From positions 1 through 44,658 of IMG/VR virus record IMGVR_UViG_3300009436_000037: a stretch of DNA of 44,658 nt; one strand, given 5' to 3'. The position numbers and the translations under genes are program-made. A model generated the notes under the pieces. That model was not told the origin of the DNA, searched no databases, and worked only from the letters and a program-made list of their open reading frames with translations. Position 1 is the first letter of the stretch; every line of letters begins with the position of its first letter. Below, one piece after another: positions 7,118 to 44,579 of the stretch. The stretch comes from a virus.

Positions 7118-10100
7118 TTATGACTTTATTTTTACCATAGGCTTAATTCGATAAGAATAACCTAATCTTTTATTATATATCAACCTAAAATTAAGGGGCT
7201 TTTGTTCGTGCGACTTAAATGTAAAATTCGTATCGTTCATATAGCCTCCATCATCTAGATTTTCAACACTCGCAGAAGATATAACCTCAGAATCTACACC
7301 CTTAATTCTACTAGTGTAAATTTTTATCATATCTAAATTAAAAGTGTTTAGCAAGTTGTTTTCTACATAAAGCTGCGCATCATCTTTAGTTGTGGTTTTA
7401 TCACCAGCAGAATTAGCAGCTGAAACGTATTTATTAATAGAGTCTAAAACACCTTCACTACTTAATAGTTTATTAAGAGTACTAGTAATGTAAAAATCCA
7501 TATAAACATATTTCTTATCTTCAAATAAAACTACGTCATATTTTTCGTCGTTATTAGCTAAAATTCTATCTTGTTGCTCCTGCGTACTAGCTCTATATGA
7601 AGTAAAGTTAATCATATTGTATGAATCTTTTACCTTCATGATTGTAGAACCTAAATAAGATCTTTCTTCTTTAGTTTCAAATGTACCGGGTACCGCTTCG
7701 TTTGTTCCACCGGATAAAGATCTAGTATAATAGTTTTTATCCCAAGAAGATCTAAATACATTTACATCTTTTTTGTCTATTGCAATCTCACCTATTAACG
7801 GGTAAAGAGGTAACTTATCTGTAGATCTTGATAATTTAGTAACACCTGCAGAATTAGTCTCATTTACTTTTCTATAAAAGTGGTTTTTAATTATACCCCA
7901 AGAAGAATCATGAGTTCCACCATCTTGTATAAAACCTAAATTAAATGAAGTTCCACATCTGTTATATCGTTTGTAATAATCTCTAGCTAATTTAATTTCT
8001 TCAGCACTAGTTAAAGAGTGCTTATACATTGGCTCCTCAAAGTTTAACTCAGTTTCGTTTAACGTAGTTTGAAGTGTATTTGTTTTAAAATGAGAATACG
8101 TATCTGTAAATGTTACAACAGGTCTAGTATCTACCGTGTAGCTACCGTTGTGTCTAACTAAGAACGGATAGTAAGTATCGCCTTGTTCAATATCAAACCC
8201 AATAACACCTTGTTTTAATTTAAAAGTTTTAGGCTTATCTTGATCTGGTGCTATAGTTAAATTAGAATCTTTAATTATCTCTACTCCATTTTCAAAATCT
8301 AATTCAAATTGATTATTTAATATAGTACCATCTTCTTCAATAGTAGTATATACAACACTACCATCGTTTAGTAATAATAAATCAGCAACTGATCCAACAG
8401 ACAGTTGGTCTAAGATCGACGTAAACGCATTCTTACCCCCTTGTTTATATACATACTCTGCACTATTTTGAACATAACCAGATATGTTAGAAACATTAAC
8501 AGCATTACCGTTTAAGTCTTGAGGGGCTCCTTCTAGAGTTATTTGATTTTGATCGTCTACTGATTGTATTTTTAGTATAAAAGTAACAGGTCCAGTAGAG
8601 TCCGTAACTGTAATTTCAATATTACCAAATATGTCATCATCATCTGAACTAATTTGATCTAAAAAGCTAGCAGTAGATCCGTCAGCGTGATTAATACCAG
8701 TTGCTACTAGATAATCAGCACCGTTTGGATTCGTAAAGTTAATATCGTTTAAGTTAAGGGCTCCTGATAATGCAACATCAGAATAGCCAAAGTTTTGATT
8801 TTCATGATTCCAAACAAAACTATGATTCATTTCATATAGAAGTTTTCTATTTAAAGCACCATCAATCCATAAATCATCTAATGATACTGTAATTAAAAAG
8901 ACAACAAACTTAAATGCTTTATTTTGAATTACCTCATATTGTATTCCGTTATTATCACTACCACCTCTTACTAATACTAAAGTGCTAAACTTATAGCCAT
9001 TAAAATCAGAAGTTTTAACAAACTCACTAGCTTTAGTGTTTACAAATTCTTTTCTATTTTTAAAGTCTACTCTAATACCTTTAAAAACTGTATTAGCAAA
9101 TGAAGCGTCATTACCACCAGAGACTAAAGTATATTTCTTTTGTAGATTTGTTTTAATAAACGACTTTATGTCATATTGATCTTTTACTTCAAACCCATCA
9201 GTAACCATAAACTTATCAAAGTAATTATATGACGTACTTTTAAAGTGAGAAGGTTTTATCTTAAAATCATTTAAGAAATTAACATAACTAAATGTGCTGT
9301 TAAGTTGGTTATAGTCTAAATACTTTGGAAGGTTATCCATATAAAACCATTCATGAGTCATTCCCAGTCTATCTCTACCAACAGAATTAAAGTCCGGTGA
9401 GAAGTTAGTTCTACCAAAAGCCTCGTTAGCATTTAGATAATAAGGTTGCTCTCTTACAGTTAAACTATCTTTTAGTGTCCATTTATTTATATTAGGAACT
9501 ACTCTAGATTGTATTGCAAATTCTTTTAAATTATTCTCTTGTAACCTATCATATTCAGTAAACAATTTAATCTCATCATTCTCGGCTTCAGTTTCCTCTC
9601 CTAAACGATCGTTAATTCCACTAAAATAAGTATATGGATCTGATATATCGTAATCATTACTAAACACCTCGAGTGTATTTTGTTGACTTCTTTCAGGCTC
9701 ATAGTTAATAATTGCTGGAGTTTCATACTCTAATTCCTTTAGCTCAGAGTTTTCTATATCATAGAAATCAAAGTTCATATCATGAATATCATAGGCTGAG
9801 AATAATCCAAGTCTAGCTATATTTTCAGAGTATAATTTTTGTTCGCCACTTTCAATGTAATTCTTTTTATCTAGTATTAGTTTCTGGTAAATAGTATTAG
9901 GTGTTGTAATATCATCGACTATGTCAATAATCTCATTGTAAACACCAACCGAAGGTGTTGGTAACATATTACCGACAGCAACATCTGAAACAGAATCTTT
10001 AGTTACTAAAACAGATTTACCAGCAGAATTACCACCATTCATGTAATGTACAAAGTTATTGTCAATTATATTTTCTGAAAGTTTAAGTAAACCACTAGGG

Positions 10101-15382: not shown

Positions 15383-15390
15383 TATATATC
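15380..15390 (-). promoter_or_regulatory. GATATATAATA motif, candidate late promoter for the 2741-aa gene
   Basis: The minus-strand sequence CTTGATATATAATAGAG lies in the 74-nt gap between the 1241-aa and 2741-aa genes, ending ~37 nt before the ATG. That is a normal promoter-to-start distance. It is one of the clearest members of the motif set and plays the role that TATAAATA plays in T4 late promoters, by analogy only. Confidence 0.5.
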
Positions 15391-15417: not shown

Positions 15418-18400
15418 TTACTGCTGAAAGATGTTTCGTCTACCGTTACTAGATGGAGTATACCATGATTGGATTGGTGCTGATGTATCTCTCGTTAATC
15501 TTGCAGCTCTAATAGAGTTTAAATTCTTACCTTTAGGGCTGTACTTAGCAAACACCTCTAAGTCAAAAGAGAATTGTTCACCAAATTTATCGAAAATATC
15601 AAAACCAATCTTCTTGGTATAAGTCAAGTTATTGTAGGCTAATCTAGCGAATCCTCCAACTCTACCAGTGTCAGTCTCCGGATTATTTCCAAAGTAATCA
15701 GTCATTCTATATTGAAATACAACTTCGACAGAAACAGCATTAGATGAATTATCTTTTTTAGGGTTTATTTGTTTTTTACTTCTTTTAGTATCACCACCAA
15801 CCTTTAATGTTTCTACGTTAACCGGGTTCATGTACAAGAACGAACCACAAGATCTACCACCTAGTAAATATTGATCGCTTTCTTCATAAGACATTTTAAC
15901 AGGTCTATCTAAATCTTCCGGTGTATTAGAATTAGCCCATAAAGTCTTTTCTTTTAAACCTCTTCCGTTATGATATGCAGTTTGTTGTTTGTTTCCAATA
16001 CTAGCACTAGCTAAAAGACTATTGTAACCAAAGAAACTAAATAGTGTAGAACCTGTTGCTTTTGTTGCAGTTTTAGGCATTGAGAAAACCATTGACTTTC
16101 TAACACCGTCTATATCAAATGCCGGAGCATTTGGTTCAGCAGCACCTTCCCATAGGTTTTCTAAAAGAGGATGTTCTTTATGTAAAAACAGACCCACGTT
16201 ATATTGATAAAGACCAAGCCCAGTATTACCAATCTCCGCTGTATTTAGTTTAGTTAGGTCCCATGTCCCAGTTATATCAGCAAATGAACCGGCCCAAATG
16301 AAATCGTTTGCGCCATTCGCAACTGTTAACGGTGATGTAGTATTATAGCTTAATCCATACTCGTAGTCAGTAATATCATAAGGTGTTGTTTCTGATTCTA
16401 AAGGCTCAACAATATAGTGTGGATTTTGATTTGCAACATCCATAAATCTACTATAAATAAATTGACCTCTTCTTTGTGTTGATTGATATGGAGCATCTCC
16501 AGTCTCTTCAAAATTATTAGTATTTACATTTTGGTACTGTATAGGTGCTAAATCATATTTACCTTCAACTAAGTAGTAACTATCGTTTTCTACTTTTTTA
16601 TCTACTGCTTCACTAAGACTATCGTTTTGTTCAATACCAAATCCGTTACTAGCCTCTGTTGAGTTTGCAGCAGAAGATCTATATGCAGCTTTATCTCTAT
16701 TACCAACTAGTTTAGATACTAATTCTAATTTAGTAGCTTTACTATTTTCTAATTGTAATCTAAACGTCTTGTTTACAATATGTCCTTTTCTAATTGCTAA
16801 ATCAGCAACCTCATTTACATAATACCCAGCAAATAATTGAACTGTTTGATCTTTAGTAACGTTAGTCACTGTACCATCTTCATCAACAATTTTAACAACC
16901 AATTCACCAACTTCAGCTTCAACAGTACCTTTAAGTCCTGCTAGTGCAGCTTCTAATTCTGCAATTTTATCGTATACAGAAATAGGCTTTTGTTCGTCTG
17001 TTAAAAACCCTGATGCAATATTAGTTGCAACGTGAGCATAATAACTTTCATTTGCAGAGAAAGAATCTCCGACGTGAGTGTAAACACCCTGAGCGGTTAA
17101 CTCTTCAATCATTCTTACTCTAGCTAATTCAGCTAGATTGGCTTCAACTGTTGCAGCAATATCATTAGTATCAATTTCTGCTTCTGGAAAAGCAACCGTC
17201 ATTGACTCTGACCAATCTGACATGATTGGGTTTTGAGGGTAACCTGCCTCTGAAATAGATTTAACTCTAATTTCTACAGTTTCACCTTGACTAATTGCAA
17301 TATCTAATTGATTGAAGTTAATTTCTTGACCATCTTCAACTCTTGATGGCTGCCATGAAAACTTAGTAGCAACTGTACCATCTGGTGCAATCGACTTAGC
17401 TCTTGGTCTTACTTTAGTTTTCTTTTCATTCCAGTTTGAGAATACTGCAGTTTTTTCTCTACCATCTTCTGCAAACTTAAGTTGAGCAGCCTCTCCTGAT
17501 TTACCAGAAGTAGATAGGTATCTATATGCAACAATAAACTGTACTACTTCTTGATCTGCAGTATCTGCAACCTTCTTAGCACCTGGTATTGCCCAGAAAC
17601 CTCTAATTCTATATTTAGGGCTAATCTTCTTAACGTTAGTATCTGTAGAAACACTTTGTATTTGATTTACAATAGAGCTAAACATTTTAGATTCTGAAAC
17701 TCTTTCTTCTATAAGTGAGTTTAATTCTGATTTATCTTTATCTCTTTGTACTTCAGATCTATATTTCTTGGTAGCAATTTCTCCACGTTTCTTAGAAATA
17801 GTTGAATCTAATTTCTTAACAGCCTCATCAACTGTAATTTTATCAGCACTTAATTTTGAAATCTTACCCTTAGCATCATTTGCACTTAAGTGTGTATTAA
17901 CCTGTACAACTTTAAAGTTTTCAGAATTTAAAACAGGAGCATCCGGAGATACACCAATTGCTGCAGGAGGTATTGAATCTACTTTTAATGCATCAATCAT
18001 TCTACTGAAATCAGCTACATTCTCTTTATAGTATTCTGCTAATGTAATTTTTATACCATCCTCTTGAGTAAGAATTAATTCGTTTGTATAATAACCAACA
18101 CCTGGAGACCAGTTCTCTGCTAATAGTTTAGAATCAGCATCAATTGCTTTCATAAACATTAAAACTCTCTCGTTGAATCCACATGGTATTTCAATTTGTA
18201 AGTTATTATCTTCGTTCTTATAGATACCTAACGCGTTAGCTCCAATTTTAATTGGCTCATAGCCCTCAATCAATCTAAGCTCAACCTGTCTAGTTGAAGA
18301 GTCCAGCTTGTTAATTCTATATCTTGTGTTTTTAGAACCACCAGCGACCATCAATTCATCTCCTACGCGGATTAATTCAGTCTGGTCTAGATCTTTACCT

Positions 18401-24426: not shown

Positions 24427-24699
24427 TTATCTAATATACTTATCATCTTTTTTAACCGTATAATTCTTGTAACCTTTTAGAAATCTATTACCGTTTAATA
24501 TATTTAAAAGATAATCATTTAAGAAAGAAATAAAATCGTTAAGTGTTGTATTTCTTTGAATGTGCTTAGAAATCATTCTTTGGAATAAACCAATCTCTTG
24601 ATAATCCGCACCGACATTTAGCCTAGAATCTTTTCTAGTTCTGGCCGCCTTGTAAAGGCTATTTCTTTTATATGCTAATAGATCTTTATATAATGACAT
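24427..24699 (-). CDS. Small basic protein between gp6-like and gp7-like genes
   Basis: A 90-aa basic, mostly helical protein (MSLYKDLLAYKRNSLYKAAR; later FISFLNDYLLNILNGNRFL). I recognise no family. Its ATG overlaps the stop of the gp6-like gene as TAATG, and it ends 2 nt before the gp7-like start. It is thus translationally coupled within the wedge operon, and its product probably acts in baseplate wedge assembly as a small component or chaperone. That role is inferred from position only. Confidence 0.65.
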   Translation of the reverse strand: MSLYKDLLAYKRNSLYKAARTRKDSRLNVGADYQEIGLFQRMISKHIQRNTTLNDFISFLNDYLLNILNGNRFLKGYKNYTVKKDDKYIR

Positions 24700-26528
24700 T
24701 ATTTCAAGGCTTTTCTGTTTCCAGCCTGTACTCTAGTGTATATCGTCCTAGGCACTGGCGTTGGGTCGAAGTTAACAGACAGAGCTGCTTCTGCATTAAT
24801 TAGAGCTTTATCAACAATCTCGTCACCATCACGATCTTGCCATCCGCCTCTAAAGACTGCAACTTCCTCTTTCTCCATAATTATATCACCCCACTGGTCT
24901 AAGCCAGCAACAGTGTACGGTATTACTGTAGTTTCATCAACGTCAACGACCCTGACTTCTTCTACTTTTTTGAAAAAGATATATTTTTGCTTACCGTTAC
25001 CTATGTCTTCTAAGACTACTGGCTCTTGTGGTTGAACGGTTGTTGTAACCGACTCGAAGTAACCTAGTCTTCTAGCTGTTTCTTCAGTTTCTGAAATAAA
25101 CCTAACGTTAACAGCATCAATACCTTCTATTTCCTCTAGAATATAGACAATATCAGATTTAGGCAGCTTATCTCTTCTTGTTACATTTAACATGTAATCA
25201 CTTACCTTTGCTCTGACATCATTAAAAATCTCTTCTTTGTTAAACCCTGAAAAATATCTAATATTAATATCCATACTATATTTTCTAACCTGAGGTTTTA
25301 CAAATACAACTTCAGTCGTAACCATTTGCTGGCCACTATCCTGAATTACTTGTCCCATTTTATCATATTCATTTTGGTCAAAGAACATTTCATTCTCTGG
25401 GATAGAGAAGTAATCTTGACCTGAAATTAATTTCTTTTTTACATCCGGAATCGCAAAAATATAGATAACGTTATCATCATCTAAGTATTCATCCGAAGTA
25501 GTATTGTAAGCATCTATGTACGAGAATAATCCATATCTTGATAAGAAGTATTCGTAATTATCTGGAGTCGCTAAAACAAAAGATTTTGAAGCAAGAGGTG
25601 TCATGATTTTTGTAAAGTCAGTAGACTCTCTTTCTGCTCCCATTTTTGGAGATGAAGTACATGTAATATCTAAGAACTCATTTAGGTCATGTTCGCCTCC
25701 TAAAGAATCAGTTCCCTCTGCATCCCATTTAAAAGTAATATCTCTACCATCATCAATGTTACCCATTGCACCATCATGGTTTACATATTCTACTTCAATA
25801 GTAGATCCTAGCGGCGGTATTGCACCAAATGCATCATTACCAAAATAAACATCAATACCTCCGGAGATACCTGTTTTTAATAAATAACCTTTTTCTTTAT
25901 TTAATAAGTCATATAATGAAACATGTTTAGTCCATTTTTCACCGTTTACAGAAACACTAACTTTAGAGTGATCTGATAATTTCTTTGTTTGTACATTAAA
26001 AGATTGTAGCTTTTCACCAGTACCAGTTAATGTTTGTCTTTCATATTTACCTTGAATAATACCACACTTAACCATGTTCATAGAAGATTTTTCTAATCGG
26101 TATCTATCGTTTGAAGATAATAAAGTATAAGTTAAATTATTTAATTCACATTTTAACTCAGCTCTTGCATCTATATTTAATCCAGTACCTGCAATCTTAC
26201 CTAGGTCAGCTCCTGGCTTCCATCTAAATTGAATCTCACCAGTTGAAGCAAAACCTCTTGTTGCATCGTGGCCTGTTAGCCTCGACATACCATATATAGA
26301 TTCTGCTTGTTGCGCAGTATATATGTTTTGTTCAACCACAGCATCCTCAATATAAAACATGATAAGTTCATATAGCTCTGAGAATACAGAAATAATTTGA
26401 GCAAAAGGAGAAGCTTCTGTAAAAAGAGTATTAGCCCTTTTGTAAACTCTACTTATGTAGGTTCTTGTATCAGCTTTAATTGCTGCTGCGTTATTTCTAA
26501 CTGTCTCTAAAAATTTTAGTTGTGCCAT
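24699..26528 (-). CDS. Baseplate wedge protein, gp6-like (baseplate J family)
   Basis: This 609-aa protein matches T4 gp6 (660 aa) in size and organisation. It has a helical N-terminus with SPFAQIISVFSELYELIMFY, a middle beta region, and a C-terminal section typical of J-like wedge proteins. There a VRKYSMDINIRYFSGFN strand precedes FNDVRAKVSDYMLNVTRRDK, then IVYILEEIEGIDAVNVRF. gp6 forms the inner ring of the contractile baseplate with gp7 and gp53. The gene sits directly after gp25-like, a pairing conserved across contractile tails. A beta domain of ~80 residues follows the J-like part at the C-terminus (PQEPVVLEDIGNGKQKYIFF onward). Confidence 0.8.
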   Translation of the reverse strand: MAQLKFLETVRNNAAAIKADTRTYISRVYKRANTLFTEASPFAQIISVFSELYELIMFYIEDAVVEQNIYTAQQAESIYGMSRLTGHDATRGFASTGEIQFRWKPGADLGKIAGTGLNIDARAELKCELNNLTYTLLSSNDRYRLEKSSMNMVKCGIIQGKYERQTLTGTGEKLQSFNVQTKKLSDHSKVSVSVNGEKWTKHVSLYDLLNKEKGYLLKTGISGGIDVYFGNDAFGAIPPLGSTIEVEYVNHDGAMGNIDDGRDITFKWDAEGTDSLGGEHDLNEFLDITCTSSPKMGAERESTDFTKIMTPLASKSFVLATPDNYEYFLSRYGLFSYIDAYNTTSDEYLDDDNVIYIFAIPDVKKKLISGQDYFSIPENEMFFDQNEYDKMGQVIQDSGQQMVTTEVVFVKPQVRKYSMDINIRYFSGFNKEEIFNDVRAKVSDYMLNVTRRDKLPKSDIVYILEEIEGIDAVNVRFISETEETARRLGYFESVTTTVQPQEPVVLEDIGNGKQKYIFFKKVEEVRVVDVDETTVIPYTVAGLDQWGDIIMEKEEVAVFRGGWQDRDGDEIVDKALINAEAALSVNFDPTPVPRTIYTRVQAGNRKALK

Positions 26529-26544
26529 TTATTATTTATCTCTT

Positions 26545-26901
26545 TTATCTTAGGTTTATTTGTACTAGATATTTACTGTCGATTGTAATATCAATATAAG
26601 CAATATCTCTCACAGTACCTTTAAAGAATTTTACATTAGTTGCAACCCTATATTTTGTAGCAAGTGGGCAATAAGTTCTTATTTGATTTGTAATTTCTTG
26701 TTTAATATTAAACTCATTTTGATTTAATGAGTAAACTAAATCCTCAAGATTACAACCAAACCCTGGAGAACCCAAGACTTCGGTTTTTCTAGTAAACAAG
26801 GTGGTTTCAATTTGAGTAATTAACTGCTCGATCTCACCGTTATTTTGTAACTGCGTCGCGTTGTAATTTGGGTCACCTATGTATTTAATATAAAATTCCA
26901 T
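26545..26901 (-). CDS. 25: Baseplate wedge protein gp25 family
   Basis: A 118-aa protein matching the GPW/gp25 family in length (T4 gp25 is 132 aa) and motifs. An N-terminal IEQLITQIETTLFTRKTEVL segment is followed by the characteristic PGFGCNLEDLVYSLN and IKQEITNQIRTYCPLATKY, then a closing strand pair. In contractile tails gp25 links the wedges to the first sheath ring and is required for sheath polymerisation. It is followed 16 nt later by gp6-like, the standard order. This is the clearest marker that the phage has a contractile tail. Confidence 0.88.
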   Translation of the reverse strand: MEFYIKYIGDPNYNATQLQNNGEIEQLITQIETTLFTRKTEVLGSPGFGCNLEDLVYSLNQNEFNIKQEITNQIRTYCPLATKYRVATNVKFFKGTVRDIAYIDITIDSKYLVQINLR

Positions 26902-26921: not shown

Positions 26922-27764
26922 TTATGAGTGGAACATATAGTCCACACCTTCGTCGCCCTTAATTTCCTCTACTATCGACTCTAACTCGGTGTCTCCCATG
27001 TCTTTAATAGCATCATAATCAAATTCTACATTACCTGGTAATGCAAACTTAAATATACCTAATTTAGCACCTAAAGATTGCTTTATCTTTGCAGAGCAAT
27101 ATCTAAAGAAAATCTCATCTGAATAAAGTGCACAATCAGATATAGTTTCGTATACCTGTAGTATACAATCTCCTTTCGGAGTGTCTCCCATTATTTTCAG
27201 CTTACCATTTAGTCTAGCATACTGAAAGCTAATAGGGTTTTCTAAAATCTGTCTTGACATATCTGCCAATGACGCATTTAGTACATAATATTGTAATTCT
27301 TCGGCTGCTTCTGCTGGACCAGATCCATCATACATACCTCTAAATAACATTTTGTCTAGCGAAAAATCACCACCACCTTGAAATCTAACATCCATACCTT
27401 GACCTGTTCCATTAAAGCCAGAAGCTAAATCATGTACTCCAAAAACTGAATAGACTGCGCCTCCACCATCAGCGTTAGCTCCCGGTAGGTTTAAACATCT
27501 ATGCTTTTTAAAATAATCGGATTCAAAAACATTTTTAGGAACAACATAATAGTTTTCTAATACAGAATCTTCATATTGCTTATAGAACCATTTTTTAGCT
27601 CTCTTAATAATGTTCATGATTTCTCTTTGCGGTAAATTAACTGGAACCATACAAGCACCTGTTAAATCATCCCCAAGCTCTGCTAAAAACTCATTTTGGC
27701 AGTTTTGCCCAAAATCTCTTTCAGTGCCTAAGTTAGTATTGTTACCTTCTCTAATTTCGCTCAT
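26922..27764 (-). CDS. Neck or head-tail connector-type virion protein, candidate
   Basis: A 280-aa protein. It has an N-terminal FLAELGDD and VNLPQREIMNIIKRAKKWFY helix, typical of connector or neck proteins that begin with a short helical bundle. A beta region with glycine-rich insertions follows, then IFFRYCSAKIKQSLGAKLG with LPGNVEFDYDAIKDMGDTEL near the C-terminus. The last part resembles T4-type neck-associated proteins as I recall them, but I cannot assign gp13 or gp14. It follows the amidoligase-like gene by 2 nt and precedes gp25-like by 20 nt. Confidence 0.5.
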   Translation of the reverse strand: MSEIREGNNTNLGTERDFGQNCQNEFLAELGDDLTGACMVPVNLPQREIMNIIKRAKKWFYKQYEDSVLENYYVVPKNVFESDYFKKHRCLNLPGANADGGGAVYSVFGVHDLASGFNGTGQGMDVRFQGGGDFSLDKMLFRGMYDGSGPAEAAEELQYYVLNASLADMSRQILENPISFQYARLNGKLKIMGDTPKGDCILQVYETISDCALYSDEIFFRYCSAKIKQSLGAKLGIFKFALPGNVEFDYDAIKDMGDTELESIVEEIKGDEGVDYMFHS

Positions 27765-27766
27765 TC

Positions 27767-29080
27767 TTACGCTTTAATTTTTTTACTTACAATAACTTCA
27801 GTCTCATCAGAGAATCTAACATGAGGCCCGACCCCACCTTCTCTGAAAATACCTCCATTCATTTTGCCTTTAAATATACCGTCCCTGCCAAAAACAAAAC
27901 AGTTGTTCAAAGTACAACTCCCATGTACAAAACTAGACTCTACTTTAGAGTCCCAAACCTCTGTACCTTGGTATAGATTTGATCTTAATATTTGAGCACC
28001 TTTGATTTTACATCCGTATAAATCACAGTTTTCAATATTACCCGATAATTCACAGTCTACAAATTCAAAACCATCTAATAAATATGAAGTTTTAAACTTA
28101 CCATCCTTAACCTGAACCCCTGAAAAATCAGAATCATAGTTAATTGTGCCCTCTTCCATTCCTCCGTTTGACAATAGATCTAGTACTTTTAACTTAAATC
28201 TTTCCCATTGAACTCTAATAACCTGCGGATTATCTTGCAAATCTACTAGTATATGTATCTTAGGCCAATGTTTATTTACGGCGGTATAGTCTTTTAATAC
28301 TGCTGAAAGCGGTGCATTTTTCTGCAAAATCCTTTTCATCTCGATTTTATTCTCGGCAGTAAACTTAGGATTAAAGCAAGATTTCCATACAGACATAATA
28401 AACATTTCCGCTAAATGTAAAATATCATCACCTCTTTTTTCATAATCTTTACCACCAATATATCTAAACTCTAAATAGTTCTTTTGTGCTTTCTCAAAGT
28501 TAATACCATAATATTTAGTATTGGCAAACGTAAAGTTATCTGAGCTAATTAGATTTTCATTGTAATAAAAGGCTTCATTTTTAGGCATAACCCATTTAAT
28601 AGACTTTGCATAAGTTGAATTCTCTCTATTAGGGAAATATTTGTAAACCCTTTTCTCATCAAATTCTAAAATAAACTTTAAAATATTCATTTTAGATACC
28701 ATCATAGGATCTATTAAAAAATCAGGATTGAAAGACATATTAAGGTGAATAGAAGCACGGTCAGTTGTATAACCATTTGCTTTAATCCATCCTAACATTT
28801 TAATAATAACTAATCTAGCATCTCGATATGGCATAGGTCCAGTAACTAATTCAATTAGTCCTTTACCACCAGACATATCTGGTTCCATTTTAAAAACATC
28901 TTTGCTAGGTTGAAAGTCAGAATGGGCCTTATCTTCTACTTTAATCTTGCGATTAAGTAGCTTAGATAAAGCTTTCTGTGTCTCTTCGATCTCTAAGTTA
29001 GAATAGAATTCAAACTCGATACCCATTTGACTTCCGTTCAGTATCGAAATTCTACTAGAGTCTCTATTTAGTTTTTGCAT
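27767..29080 (-). CDS. Amidoligase-like enzyme fused to beta-helix-like C-terminus
   Basis: Residues ~15-235 show the pattern of amidoligase (COOH-NH2 ligase, glutamine-synthetase-like fold) proteins. They read MGIEFEFY (Glu22, Glu24), FKMEPDMSGG (Glu66, Asp68), IELVTGPMPY (Glu77), ASIHLNMSF (His112, Asn114) and NYLEFRYIGG (Glu204, Arg206). Such enzymes form ATP-dependent amide or peptide bonds, so an amino-acid tag on a protein or modification of a small molecule is expected. Residues ~310-410 are short repeating strands (CELSGNIENCDLYGCKIKG; SSFVHGSCTLNNCFVFG) like pentapeptide-repeat or left-handed beta-helix folds, perhaps substrate binding. It has a promoter-like motif upstream and is followed by a neck-like gene 2 nt later, so it is made with virion proteins. 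The substrate is unknown. Confidence 0.65.
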   Translation of the reverse strand: MQKLNRDSSRISILNGSQMGIEFEFYSNLEIEETQKALSKLLNRKIKVEDKAHSDFQPSKDVFKMEPDMSGGKGLIELVTGPMPYRDARLVIIKMLGWIKANGYTTDRASIHLNMSFNPDFLIDPMMVSKMNILKFILEFDEKRVYKYFPNRENSTYAKSIKWVMPKNEAFYYNENLISSDNFTFANTKYYGINFEKAQKNYLEFRYIGGKDYEKRGDDILHLAEMFIMSVWKSCFNPKFTAENKIEMKRILQKNAPLSAVLKDYTAVNKHWPKIHILVDLQDNPQVIRVQWERFKLKVLDLLSNGGMEEGTINYDSDFSGVQVKDGKFKTSYLLDGFEFVDCELSGNIENCDLYGCKIKGAQILRSNLYQGTEVWDSKVESSFVHGSCTLNNCFVFGRDGIFKGKMNGGIFREGGVGPHVRFSDETEVIVSKKIKA

Positions 29081-29105: not shown

Positions 29106-29113
29106 TATATATC
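29106..29113 (-). promoter_or_regulatory. GATATATA motif, candidate late promoter for the amidoligase-like gene
   Basis: Minus-strand ATTGATATATATTGAAAG lies in the 50-nt gap between the S1-like and amidoligase-like genes, ending ~25 nt before the ATG at 29080. It is placed to start transcription of the amidoligase, neck and wedge genes. Confidence 0.45.
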
Positions 29114-29130: not shown

Positions 29131-30423
29131 TTATTGGGGCATCTTTAAAAAGACCTTCATTGTTGCCTCGTCAATTCTAGTAATCTGAACGGTTATTTTA
29201 TCACCAGGGTTAAATACAGACATAGTCTCCTCACCTATTTCGCTAACATGTAGCAATCCAGTCACACCCTCTTCGATTGTAATGAATAAACCATAATCTT
29301 TTTTAGACTTTACAGTTGCCTCTACCACAGAAGGTATTTGGTATCTCGTAGAAATATTTATCCAAGGGTTAACCTCGACTACATCTTTCTGTGTTAGGGT
29401 AATCTTCCTATTACTAATAATATCTTTTACCTTAAATTTAATTGGATCTCCAGGTTTAATATCTCTAGCTTTAAATCTAGTTAAAGTTTCTTCGTCTAGG
29501 TCATTATTGTGAATCATACCAGTTAAACATTTGCTAAACTCTACGAATACACCATACTTAGCTGTACCTGTTACTAGCCCTTCTCTTTCTATCTCAATGC
29601 TCTGTTTTAATTCTTCTATTGCAGTTGGTATAAGTGCTTGTAAATATTTTCTATGTGAAACTACAATCGTACCTCTATCTGGAGAGAAACTAACCGGTAC
29701 TACATAAATCTCTTCGCCAACAATAGAGCTGAAATCAGATAATTTATTTATACCTGCTAATGAACCTGGCATAAAGCAACTAATACCTTGTACTGTAACT
29801 ACATAACCACCTTTATCAATCATACTATTAACAGTACCAATCCATGCAGTTCTACCTTCATCAATTGCATCTCTAAGATCCATGAATGTTTTATGTTTGA
29901 CACCACCTGTAATCGTACCTGTAATCGTACCTTTTGTTTCTGTAATTAAGACTGCGGTTTCATCTCCAACAGAAGATGCTTGAACCTCAGCAGACTCTTT
30001 ACCAAACTTAACATAGACTAATTCTCTATAATTTATATCTACAGTTATATAGTCTCGATCAATCGCGTGAATAGTACCCTCGTGGATTTCACCCTCATTA
30101 ACAACCGGCTTAATATCTTTGCCGTAATTTTCCATCATATCATATAACTCTTGTGCATAGGGCTCTCTCGAGTATACCTTATCACCGTCATTAGTTTTAA
30201 TATGCGGATTAGGAGTTCTATTTCTAGTAGGACACGTACCTTCGTAAGCTTCCCAAAGGAACTCTCCGTTTTCATCATAAAATTCTGCGTGGGGGTTTGC
30301 AGGTTTTTCTTTAGCTTCTGTTTTAGCTTCTACCTGCTCTTGTGTATTTTGAGTCTTTTCTTCGACTGCGATTGTTGTGGTTACATCTTGACCGATGCGT
30401 TTTCTTTTAGCGTTTGCTGACAT
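29131..30423 (-). CDS. Ribosomal protein S1-like RNA-binding protein with four S1 domains
   Basis: A 430-aa protein. Residues ~10-45 are a Lys/Glu/Gln-rich linker. Residues ~46-105 form a unique segment (TCPTRNRTPNPHI). Four S1 (OB-fold) domains follow at about 111-165, 193-258, 282-346 and 363-428. The last two are classic (GTAKYGVFVEF then LTGMIHNNDL; KSKKDYGLFITIEEGVTGLL then HVSEIG). Bacterial S1 usually has six domains and brings mRNA to the 30S subunit. Domains one and two are more divergent. It begins its own unit at the divergent region and precedes the amidoligase and wedge genes, so abundant late expression is plausible. It may help translate SD-less phage mRNA, or bind RNA for another purpose. 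Confidence 0.8.
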   Translation of the reverse strand: MSANAKRKRIGQDVTTTIAVEEKTQNTQEQVEAKTEAKEKPANPHAEFYDENGEFLWEAYEGTCPTRNRTPNPHIKTNDGDKVYSREPYAQELYDMMENYGKDIKPVVNEGEIHEGTIHAIDRDYITVDINYRELVYVKFGKESAEVQASSVGDETAVLITETKGTITGTITGGVKHKTFMDLRDAIDEGRTAWIGTVNSMIDKGGYVVTVQGISCFMPGSLAGINKLSDFSSIVGEEIYVVPVSFSPDRGTIVVSHRKYLQALIPTAIEELKQSIEIEREGLVTGTAKYGVFVEFSKCLTGMIHNNDLDEETLTRFKARDIKPGDPIKFKVKDIISNRKITLTQKDVVEVNPWINISTRYQIPSVVEATVKSKKDYGLFITIEEGVTGLLHVSEIGEETMSVFNPGDKITVQITRIDEATMKVFLKMPQ

Positions 30424-30462: not shown

Positions 30463-30472
30463 ATTATATATC
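30463..30472 (-). promoter_or_regulatory. GATATATAAT motif, candidate late promoter for the S1-like gene
   Basis: Minus-strand GTAGATATATAATATG ends ~39 nt before the S1-like ATG at 30423. This is the least ambiguous site in the set because no gene lies immediately upstream on the same strand. Some promoter is therefore needed here. Confidence 0.55.
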
Positions 30473-39210: not shown

Positions 39211-39222
39211 TTTATATATATC
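39211..39222 (-). promoter_or_regulatory. GATATATATAAA motif, candidate late promoter for the central baseplate operon
   Basis: Minus-strand ACAGATATATATAAAAAAC lies in the 54-nt gap before the 582-aa gene, ending ~18 nt before the ATG at 39193. Nine tightly spaced genes (39193 down to 31051) could be transcribed from it. Confidence 0.45.
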
Positions 39223-42357: not shown

Positions 42358-44091
42358 TTAGTATATTGTTTTAAGTCTTTCTTCAAACGAAGGTGGGAAT
42401 AACCCTTTTTTATTTATCAAGCTTCTAAAGCACGCATCCAGGATATATGTTACTGCCCAATCGTCTTTAGATCTAACAGATCGTCCAGCTCCTTGCTGTA
42501 TTGCAATGCCCGTTTTCCAATCATACCAATCTGGAAATGCAGACATCTTAGCTTTTACAAGCGGATCTCCTAGAGAAGGATATGGTACTTTAAAAAAGAT
42601 TTGAAATCTAGATTTGTCATCTTTTAAGTCTAACCCTTCTAATAGTGATGGTCCCATAAGTATTTTACCATCCTGTTCATTAAAGTTTCTAATTGCCCCT
42701 TGTCTCTCCTTGGCTAAATCATAGGTGATGAAATCAAAACTATGTTTAGAATGTTGATTGATGTAGTTTGTGAAATTGTAGGAACCGGCGTGAATAATTC
42801 CACTTTGTCCTTTGTGTTTCTCTAAGATCTTATCCAGAGTCTTAACTACATGAGGGAGATTTTGTTCGCGTTCTCTAAAAGACAATTTGTGCCTATTAAT
42901 GAAAACCACGGGGGATTTTTTGTAATCAAAATTATTACTCATTCTAATAACTTTAGCATTACCCATTTTAGTATGTTTTGCATAAGATCTAATATCACCT
43001 AATGTTGCTGACATAAAGACTTTAAAGCCACTTTTCTTTTGTAAGAATTTATCAATCATCATTGCCTCTTCCAAACATAAGAATTTAGTTTCAGTTTCTT
43101 TACGATCAATAACAATCGCGTCCATACCAAGTTCTTTAATTATATCATGATAGTCATCAAACTTACACCATATATCTTTTAGTCTATCGAGTCGTCCAAA
43201 AAAAGTCTGCCAATCCTTAGGGACATCTCCCCCTTTGAATCTAGACTTACTTTGTTTTAGGGCTGCCGATCTGACCTTGCGGTAAACCACGGCAATACCT
43301 CTGAATTCTCTGATGTGGCTCATCAACTCCTGGTGATCGTCTTCCCGCATTAAGCGGTCGACTATATCTTCTATTCTGTTCTCAGATACCCAGGCAGCAC
43401 TAATGGCCTGTTTCTGTATAAACTTGTTTACCTCTTTAAATATCTTACTGGTTGTTCTGTCTATTCTAGGACTAAAGTGTGATTGTACTATACTGTCTAC
43501 CTTATGTGCTTCATCAAAGAATACAAAGTCTCTCTTAGGAAATGGTACCTCTCTGTCTTGTTCTTGCATCTTATCCTCTACATAATTCCTTTGTATTAGA
43601 TAGTATGAATAGTTGAAGAGAGCTACAGGTAGCTCCTTCGCGCGCTTTCTGCCCTGAAGATACCCACAGGTTCCCCAGCAAGGTAATTTCTCTGCAGCTT
43701 CATACCCAATCCCTTTCATCTTACAATCAGCAAGTGAGAATGGCAGATCATTTACGTTACAATTATAGTTGTCTACTCCTCTTATACTTGGCCAATTAAG
43801 TTTTAGCCTTTTAAAGTCTTCTTCATATTGATCTTGTAGCATTAGATCAGAGGTTACTAAATAACCTCTTTTACCCAGTTCTTTTAGGACGTGCGCGGAC
43901 CACATAGCAATTAGTGATTTACCACTTCCAGTTGGGGCATCTAAAATAATAGTCCCTTCTGGATCTTCAAGATAATGATTGCAGATAGCTTCAATAACTT
44001 CTCTCTGTCCCTCTCTGAATTTGAAATCTTTTCCAAACGTACCAGTGACAAGCGCCTCATTAATAATAGCGTCTACTCCGCGTTCCAACAT
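42358..44091 (-). CDS. DinG/XPD-like superfamily 2 Fe-S helicase
   Basis: This 577-aa protein has Walker A DAPTGSGKS (51-59) and DEAH box FFDEAH (191-196). Four Cys (111, 123, 138, 142) between them are the Fe-S cluster ligands of XPD/DinG helicases, spaced C-11-C-14-C-3-C. Motif VI is QQGAGRSVRSKDD near residue 535, with SATLGDIRSY and LLEGLDL as further helicase motifs. These enzymes unwind DNA 5' to 3', acting on forks, R-loops and repair structures. T4-type phages more often carry Dda, UvsW and gp41, so a DinG type is less usual. The start overlaps the dCMP deaminase gene by 19 nt, indicating coupling. Confidence 0.88.
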   Translation of the reverse strand: MLERGVDAIINEALVTGTFGKDFKFREGQREVIEAICNHYLEDPEGTIILDAPTGSGKSLIAMWSAHVLKELGKRGYLVTSDLMLQDQYEEDFKRLKLNWPSIRGVDNYNCNVNDLPFSLADCKMKGIGYEAAEKLPCWGTCGYLQGRKRAKELPVALFNYSYYLIQRNYVEDKMQEQDREVPFPKRDFVFFDEAHKVDSIVQSHFSPRIDRTTSKIFKEVNKFIQKQAISAAWVSENRIEDIVDRLMREDDHQELMSHIREFRGIAVVYRKVRSAALKQSKSRFKGGDVPKDWQTFFGRLDRLKDIWCKFDDYHDIIKELGMDAIVIDRKETETKFLCLEEAMMIDKFLQKKSGFKVFMSATLGDIRSYAKHTKMGNAKVIRMSNNFDYKKSPVVFINRHKLSFREREQNLPHVVKTLDKILEKHKGQSGIIHAGSYNFTNYINQHSKHSFDFITYDLAKERQGAIRNFNEQDGKILMGPSLLEGLDLKDDKSRFQIFFKVPYPSLGDPLVKAKMSAFPDWYDWKTGIAIQQGAGRSVRSKDDWAVTYILDACFRSLINKKGLFPPSFEERLKTIY

Positions 44092-44579
44092 ATAACCTCT
44101 TTTACTTCGATACCTGCACGTTCTAGTAATTCTACTCCTCCCATATCTCTATAGTCTTCTGAATAGAATACTCTTGCAATACCTGCTTGAATAATTAATT
44201 TTGCGCAATCAAAACATGGACATGTAGTTACATACATATCTGCTCCTTCTGAGCTTAGTGTTGATTTGCTTACTTTTGCTAATGCATTTGATTCTGCATG
44301 TAAGACCTCTCTTTTAGTTACCTCTTTAGAACAACAGCCATCTTCACATGAATAACCCTTTTCTTCTAATACTTTTTTATGGTTATCATTCTCTATCTCT
44401 CTAACCTGTATCTCTTCACAGTCGTTTTCGAACTTATGTGGCGTACCATTATATCCAGTTGATATAACTTGTGTATCTTTCACAATAATACAACCTACGC
44501 GCCTACGTTTAGCATAGGATAGTTTGGCTATTTGATAAGCCATCTGCATATAAATTAAGTCTACTGGTATTCTAGGCAT
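44073..44579 (-). CDS. cd: dCMP deaminase
   Basis: A 168-aa zinc-dependent deaminase of the dCMP type. VLHAESNAL gives His94 (Zn ligand) and the proton-shuttling Glu96. TTCPCFDCAKLI supplies the PCxxC Zn ligands Cys122 and Cys125. RRVGCIIVKD with STGYNGTP is the usual substrate-binding start. An extra Cys/His-rich loop at 64-84 (Cys78, Cys82, Cys83) resembles the additional metal site in T4-type dCMP deaminases. The enzyme makes dUMP for dTTP synthesis, giving a phage supply of thymidylate. It is the first visible gene after a strong terminator and overlaps the helicase gene. Confidence 0.9.
   Translation of the reverse strand: MPRIPVDLIYMQMAYQIAKLSYAKRRRVGCIIVKDTQVISTGYNGTPHKFENDCEEIQVREIENDNHKKVLEEKGYSCEDGCCSKEVTKREVLHAESNALAKVSKSTLSSEGADMYVTTCPCFDCAKLIIQAGIARVFYSEDYRDMGGVELLERAGIEVKEVICWNAE

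Follow-up and report, generated by a model that had tools for sequence, protein, structure and literature searches.

Knowledge of phage amidoligases derives mainly from small gene clusters that also encode partner enzymes, as in phiEco32, phi14:2, and their relatives. The amidoligase genes of phiEco32 and phi14:2 are located near GATase, ATP-grasp, and GGACT genes, that of phiEco32 also near a COOH-NH2 ligase gene, and a role at the envelope has been proposed for the phiEco32 amidoligases (PMC10580990, PMC11318856).

The gene analyzed in this study originates from the virus record IMGVR_UViG_3300009436_000037 of IMG/VR, whose 44,658 bases are referred to as the window. Positions 27767..29080 on the minus strand correspond exactly to an open reading frame of 437 amino acids with an ATG start, encoding an amidoligase fused to a beta-helix. 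As in the phiEco32 type of the Amidoligase_2 family (PF12224; e.g., gp84 of phiEco32), the motifs of the protein are arranged in the order GxExE, D-x-S, E, H-x-[HN], R, Y-x-x-x-N, and E-F-R. The protein differs in carrying SGG instead of SLR, H-x-N instead of H-x-H, and an additional C-terminal beta-helix, and no gene for a glutamine amidotransferase, a COOH-NH2 ligase, or an ATP-grasp enzyme was seen in its neighborhood. It represents a solitary amidoligase fused to a beta-helix, conserved as a single-copy gene in many metagenomic relatives and also in the largest known phages (634–735 kb).

The nearest relative found that consists of the glutamine-synthetase-like domain only is the enzyme of Agrobacterium phage Atu_ph07 (AUZ94978), which is likewise solitary and has EPDGS, ELVSP, H-x-N, and EFRxxGG in common with the fusion, but lacks a C-terminal beta-helix and has its first motif followed by an insert. 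Salicola phage SCTP-2 gp125 was matched by the window protein with an E-value of 1e-3. Both gp124 and gp125 of this phage contain the H-x-S and E-x-R-[YF]-x-GG region, but differ from the fusion in being tandem copies of 647 and 606 amino acids with large inserts and no beta-helix; the two genes (L086:13924-15744 and 15741-17684) are located close to the ClpP-like protease gene gp122. The same two-domain architecture was found in BFVD entry A0A6J5PQ40 of an uncultured Caudovirales phage, which aligns over its full length (TM-score 0.85 over 438 columns, 24% identity) and is named only 'Uncharacterized protein'. The literature search revealed no description of an amidoligase–beta-helix fusion; a related arrangement may be contained in the founding paper by Iyer et al. 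2009.

Domain Architecture of the Fusion Protein

Evaluated on its own, the window protein matched no Pfam family, no PDB entry by sequence, and, among PHROGs, a single uncharacterised one; the assignment of its N-terminal domain (residues 1–305, positions 28166..29080, minus strand) to the glutamine-synthetase-like amidoligases is therefore based on relatives, profiles, and fold. Relative L019, which is 80% identical to the window protein, achieved 30.6 bits against PF12224 (cut-off 22, E-value 4.1e-7), the relatives L058 and L071 likewise exceeded the cut-off, and 13 of the 44 family members matched this model at E ≤ 0.05. The family's own profile found the amidoligase of Atu_ph07, which itself exceeds the PF12224 cut-off, with an E-value of 1.2e-19. 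Mycobacteriophage Marvin was also tried as a reference, and none of its five genes selected matched PF12224. When the family was compared by hhalign with nine enzymes of the phiEco32 type, no significant match resulted (probability 0.5%; shallow alignments, secondary structure unused); at the sequence level, the link is therefore provided by the Pfam model and Atu_ph07.

Structure prediction with AlphaFold2, for which the alignments consisted of the window and IMG/VR rows only, resulted in a model with a mean pLDDT of 90.2 and a pTM of 0.82, featuring an alpha/beta N-terminal domain followed by an all-beta solenoid (residues 307–425). Foldseek placed glutamine synthetases on top of the PDB matches of this model with probabilities of up to 1.00; in the top fold match (e.g., PDB 8fbp), the order of the Glu, His, and E-x-R motifs is the same at approximately 10% identity. 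Named phage amidoligases were among the best matches to viral models, with E-values down to 1.4e-12. The second model, calculated for L119, a relative sharing 37% identity with the window protein, and not fully independent of the first one since both have alignment rows in common, consisted of the same two domains, and again glutamine synthetases ranked first. Since the TM-scores to glutamine synthetase were near 0.3 for both models, the match comprises the core of the glutamine-synthetase fold, and not the whole protein. An amidoligase-type N-terminal domain had been recognized in an earlier note made from the letters of the window, and it was borne out by the relatives above the PF12224 cut-off, the profile match to Atu_ph07, the motifs, and the glutamine-synthetase-like fold, for which the note had proposed a structural check and which was predicted in both models in agreement with Foldseek. 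An accidental likeness to amidoligases, with a different function of the domain, appears extremely improbable: the lack of a Pfam match for the window protein and the non-significant hhalign result would fit such a case, but it is largely refuted by the Pfam scores of the relatives, the profile match, and the fold matches.

The C-terminal domain (residues 307–425, positions 27806..28162, minus strand) was identified as a pentapeptide-type quadrilateral beta-helix, as deduced from its AlphaFold2 strands, a period of five residues, and the Foldseek matches MfpA, AlbG, and Rfr23. Hydrophobicity follows this period in residues 316–400, reached by only 1 of 5000 shuffles, and no such period was found in the first domain; in the L119 model, the strands of the solenoid are spaced five residues apart. 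MfpA and AlbG were recovered with the solenoid of the window model, Rfr23 and AlbG with the L119 model (probability 0.93). Searching the PDB by sequence, the profile achieved weak pentapeptide matches, whereas the single protein gave none. Qnr also belongs to the solved neighbours of the solenoid. SV2 chains also appeared among the PDB matches, reflecting the pentapeptide-like domain of SV2 itself, and are without functional meaning here. Because the best scores remained below the Pfam cut-offs (26.8 bits versus 38 for Pentapeptide_4, PF13599, and 17.3 versus 20.2 for PF00805), the solenoid is termed pentapeptide-type by fold, and not as a member of the family. It shares the quadrilateral beta-helix and the five-residue period with MfpA, AlbG, Qnr, and Rfr23, but is about 120 residues long, shows a weak repeat sequence, is located behind an enzyme, and lacks the charge of a DNA mimic. 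With 19 acidic versus 15 basic residues, a strong negative charge is absent, and a DNA-mimic role was set aside for this reason. Probably, the beta-helix serves to dock the enzyme on its substrate or to stabilize an oligomer. The earlier note had assigned a solenoid to the C-terminal half of the protein; the solenoid itself was confirmed by the AlphaFold2 model, the period of five, and Foldseek, but it occupies the last third.

An amidoligase fold with a beta-helix is thus almost certain for this protein. Both domains of the fusion are under purifying selection, with dN/dS values of approximately 0.07–0.18, dS being near saturation in the more distant pairs. Overall, the fusion is real.

Conservation of the Putative Active Site

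The alignment of 44 sequences, reaching down to approximately 32% identity to the window protein, contains 30 invariant motif positions, and all 44 sequences are identical at G20, E22, E24, E66, D68, S70, E77, H112, N114, S116, R152, Y190, N194, E204, and R206. The GxExE motif (residues 20–26, positions 29003..29023; this and all following motifs on the minus strand), whose G20, E22, and E24 mark probable metal ligands, is also invariant in the reference phage amidoligases. It is followed by E66-P-D68-x-S70-G-G (28865..28885), which according to the alignment is the invariant counterpart of DGSLR in the reference enzymes, and by E77 of ELVTGP (28850..28852), a Glu that is invariant in the reference family, too. 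The invariant H112-x-N114-x-S116 (28733..28747) corresponds to H-x-H in the phiEco32-type enzymes and to H-x-N in that of Atu_ph07. In KYYGIN (residues 189–194, 28499..28516), the counterpart of KYSALN, K189, Y190, G192, and N194 are invariant, and the ExR motif E204-F-R206 (28463..28471), representing a probable metal ligand and a phosphate-binding Arg, has E204 and R206 in common with all reference enzymes. In a joint alignment with the enzymes of Atu_ph07, phiEco32, FJK, and phi14:2, D68, S70, E77, H112, R152, Y190, N194, E204, F205, and R206 were still invariant. For three of these enzymes, the first motif was wrongly placed by MAFFT, although it is plainly present in each of them. The acidic, His-Asn, and ExR positions pointed out previously were accordingly all found, with no substitution of Glu, His, or Arg across the 44 aligned sequences.

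Metal and phosphate binding by the motif residues is inferred from glutamine synthetase, and the conservation pattern suggests that the fusion enzyme is likely catalytically active. It would belong to the ATP-dependent carboxylate-amine ligases with a glutamine-synthetase fold, the C-terminal beta-helix forming a docking or oligomer part. By analogy with the glutamine-synthetase family, ATP would phosphorylate a carboxylate at the site formed by E22, E24, E77, H112, E204, and R206, and an amine would then attack the acyl phosphate, yielding an amide. More speculatively, an amino acid or amine may be added to a protein produced together with the enzyme, for which a neck or baseplate protein would be the foremost candidate.

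Compared to the phiEco32 type, two residues are exchanged, the Arg of SLR being gone in SGG and the second His of H-x-H being an Asn. Their loss could point to a protein with a structural role or an association with the virion, in which the fold persists without enzyme activity, and the position of the gene as the first one before a neck gene, together with the frequent occurrence of beta-helices in phage particles, would suit such a protein. However, the invariance of the acidic, His, and ExR positions down to approximately 32% identity would be needless in a dead enzyme, which makes the loss of activity very unlikely.

Gene Neighborhood and Promoter-Like Element

The fusion gene is separated by 2 nt from the next gene on the minus strand (26922..27764), which encodes a neck or head-tail adaptor-like protein (phrog_211, E-value 6.7e-10). 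It is followed on the same strand by a gene for a gp25-like baseplate wedge protein (26545..26901; phrog_43, and PF04965 with an E-value of 1.7e-4, below the cut-off) and one for a gp6/J-like baseplate wedge protein (24699..26528; phrog_219, E-value 7.8e-24). Directly upstream of the fusion gene, an S1-domain RNA-binding protein is encoded (29131..30423, minus strand; PF00575, E-value 2e-23); this gene precedes the amidoligase throughout the lineage of the window and may represent a phage translation factor. The close spacing to a neck-like gene stated in the earlier note agrees with the ORF coordinates and the phrog_211 match. The order amidoligase–neck–gp25–wedge was found in 65 of 65 loci of the window's lineage, mostly with 1–7 nt between amidoligase and neck gene. 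These loci were found via the wedge gene, reaching 4 kb upstream, and many of the contigs are close relatives, so that the loci should not be counted as independent of one another.

In most of the larger relatives, comprising the 634–642 kb records and their kin in IMG/VR, the fusion gene adjoins a block of baseplate-type genes in opposite orientation, and a DHH-phosphoesterase-like gene usually comes next. In the 634–735 kb relatives, the wedge gene is located far from the fusion gene, and the S1 neighbor is not kept adjacent. The proposed location of the ligase in a tail operon therefore holds for the window's own lineage, but not for the 634–735 kb relatives, in which it is encoded on the strand opposite to the neighboring baseplate genes. 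A gene for a DHH-phosphoesterase-like protein of approximately 490–760 amino acids follows the amidoligase in many larger relatives (L119:9414-11141, L082:16826-18817, L113:9784-11412, and others).

A promoter-like element, GATATATA, is located 33 nt before the ATG of the fusion gene (29106..29113, minus strand), and the same element was found before most copies of the gene; the neck gene of the window lacks one. RATATATA occurs within ≤70 nt upstream of 67 of the 72 distinct amidoligase genes, at a distance that is nearly fixed per lineage (approximately 33–36 or 12–14 nt), and before 46 of 47 S1 genes (that of the window at 30465-30472), but before none of 48 neck genes, one of 48 gp25 genes, and one of 45 wedge genes. 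It is rare in coding sequence. The signal lies in its position before genes, since the count for the whole window is not above chance (10 versus 15 expected). Six minus-strand genes of the window, several of them virion genes, are preceded by the element at 12–67 nt (707-714, 7174-7181, 15383-15390, 29106-29113, 30465-30472, and 39215-39222), and a position-specific placement was also observed in huge phages. At the right end of the window (42358-44579, minus strand), genes for a DNA helicase (phrog_2488) and a dCMP deaminase were identified, which do not have the element.

RATATATA is read as a candidate promoter. As it precedes 67 of 72 amidoligase genes, but none of the 48 neck genes, the amidoligase probably comes first in the transcription unit for the neck and baseplate proteins in the window's lineage. 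Among the genes on pieces of the 462 kb relative, those for a tail-spike-like protein, an ATPase, and an endonuclease are preceded by the element, and those for a helicase, a topoisomerase, and rIIA are not; this distribution fits a late class, the sample being small. The presence of the element before non-virion genes such as those for the ATPase and the endonuclease means that it is not a proven late promoter. Late production, as expected in the earlier note, is indirectly supported by the shared promoter-like element. Judged from gene order and element, the fusion enzyme is likely made together with virion proteins.

As a whole, the observations are best explained by an active ligase with a docking beta-helix that is made with neck and baseplate, a reading for which we see roughly even chances. 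A virion protein can only tentatively be suggested as the putative substrate, and the tagging of capsid, tail, or host-wall molecules considered in the earlier note is a guess. The full scenario, in which an enzyme made from the neck/baseplate transcript docks via its beta-helix and covalently amidates or aminoacylates virion proteins, is somewhat unlikely. Further support for a link to the particle is given by the baseplate genes adjoining the fusion gene in huge phages and by a portal gene near the amidoligase of Atu_ph07. In the latter phage, the portal gene is found two genes away from the amidoligase (L248:7930-9432), on the opposite strand, and this single case hints that the link of the amidoligase to particle genes may be older than the fusion. 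To our knowledge, no covalent amide-type chemical maturation of a tailed-phage particle has been described; if the particle is indeed modified, covalent amide chemistry would be added to virion assembly.

Alternatively, the enzyme could have the host envelope as its target, altering the wall through peptidoglycan precursors or surface peptides in order to block superinfection or to assist lysis. This function has been proposed for phiEco32, and late expression would suit it. However, the partners of the phiEco32 enzyme are missing: neither PF14395 (COOH-NH2 ligase) nor PF13522 (GATase_6) was detected in any of the eight megaphage and jumbo-phage records searched, whereas phiEco32 as a control was positive for both; PF13522 was also matched in phi14:2. 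GGACT (gamma-glutamyl cyclotransferase-like) genes are present in three huge-phage (Mahaphage) records at a distance from the amidoligase (L260, L263, L264, and L265). Since PF14395 and PF13522 are absent and GGACT is not adjacent, the fusion enzyme seems to work without these partner genes. Moreover, it is neck and baseplate genes that adjoin the fusion gene, and no lysis gene was identified beside it, leaving an action on the envelope unlikely.

Jumbo-phage enzymes of the GNAT and ATP-grasp types have been proposed to modify host proteins (PMC7824862). Following this precedent, the fusion enzyme might modify host proteins such as ribosomal proteins or translation factors, or make a small amide metabolite in the course of host takeover, and the upstream S1-domain neighbor with the same promoter-like element would be in line with this. 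Such a role is nevertheless rather improbable, as the gene is linked to virion genes and not to takeover genes, and the S1 neighbor is not kept next to it in the 634–735 kb relatives. If the host is modified, this would assign a function to a conserved but so far uncharacterized Mahaphage gene.

Occurrence of the Fusion Gene in Other Phages

When IMG/VR was scanned by pattern, a single query recovered 134 relatives and the alignment at least 547; the fully translated copies matched the profile across both domains. As a single-copy gene, the fusion was identified in the huge-phage records LR756500 (462 kb), LR745206 (635 kb), LR756502 (642 kb), LR756501 (735 kb), and LR756504 (636 kb), the second match in LR756502 being a weak fragment with stops. 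Al-Shayeb et al. 2020 assigned their four largest genomes to the Mahaphage clade with Bacteroidetes as predicted hosts (PMC7162821), and the huge-phage carriers of the fusion fit members of this clade. No evident Shine-Dalgarno sequences were found at the gene starts of the window, which fits Bacteroidetes hosts without proving them.

Lak phages have been assigned to the Mahaphage clade as well (PMC7162821). In Lak-A1, a related wedge gene is present, but the family profile search revealed no recognizable amidoligase, and the fusion enzyme is therefore not a general need of this type of virion. TAG codons interrupt the reading frame of the wedge homologue of Lak-A1 (L255, 279245-280840), in agreement with a reassigned stop codon.

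Scanning of the genome collection resulted in two loci only, both residing in metagenome-assembled bins. One contig, L155, belongs to a 'Deltaproteobacteria' metagenome bin and carries, all in one orientation, the genes for the amidoligase and the neck, gp25-like, and wedge proteins; it probably represents phage DNA in a bacterial bin.
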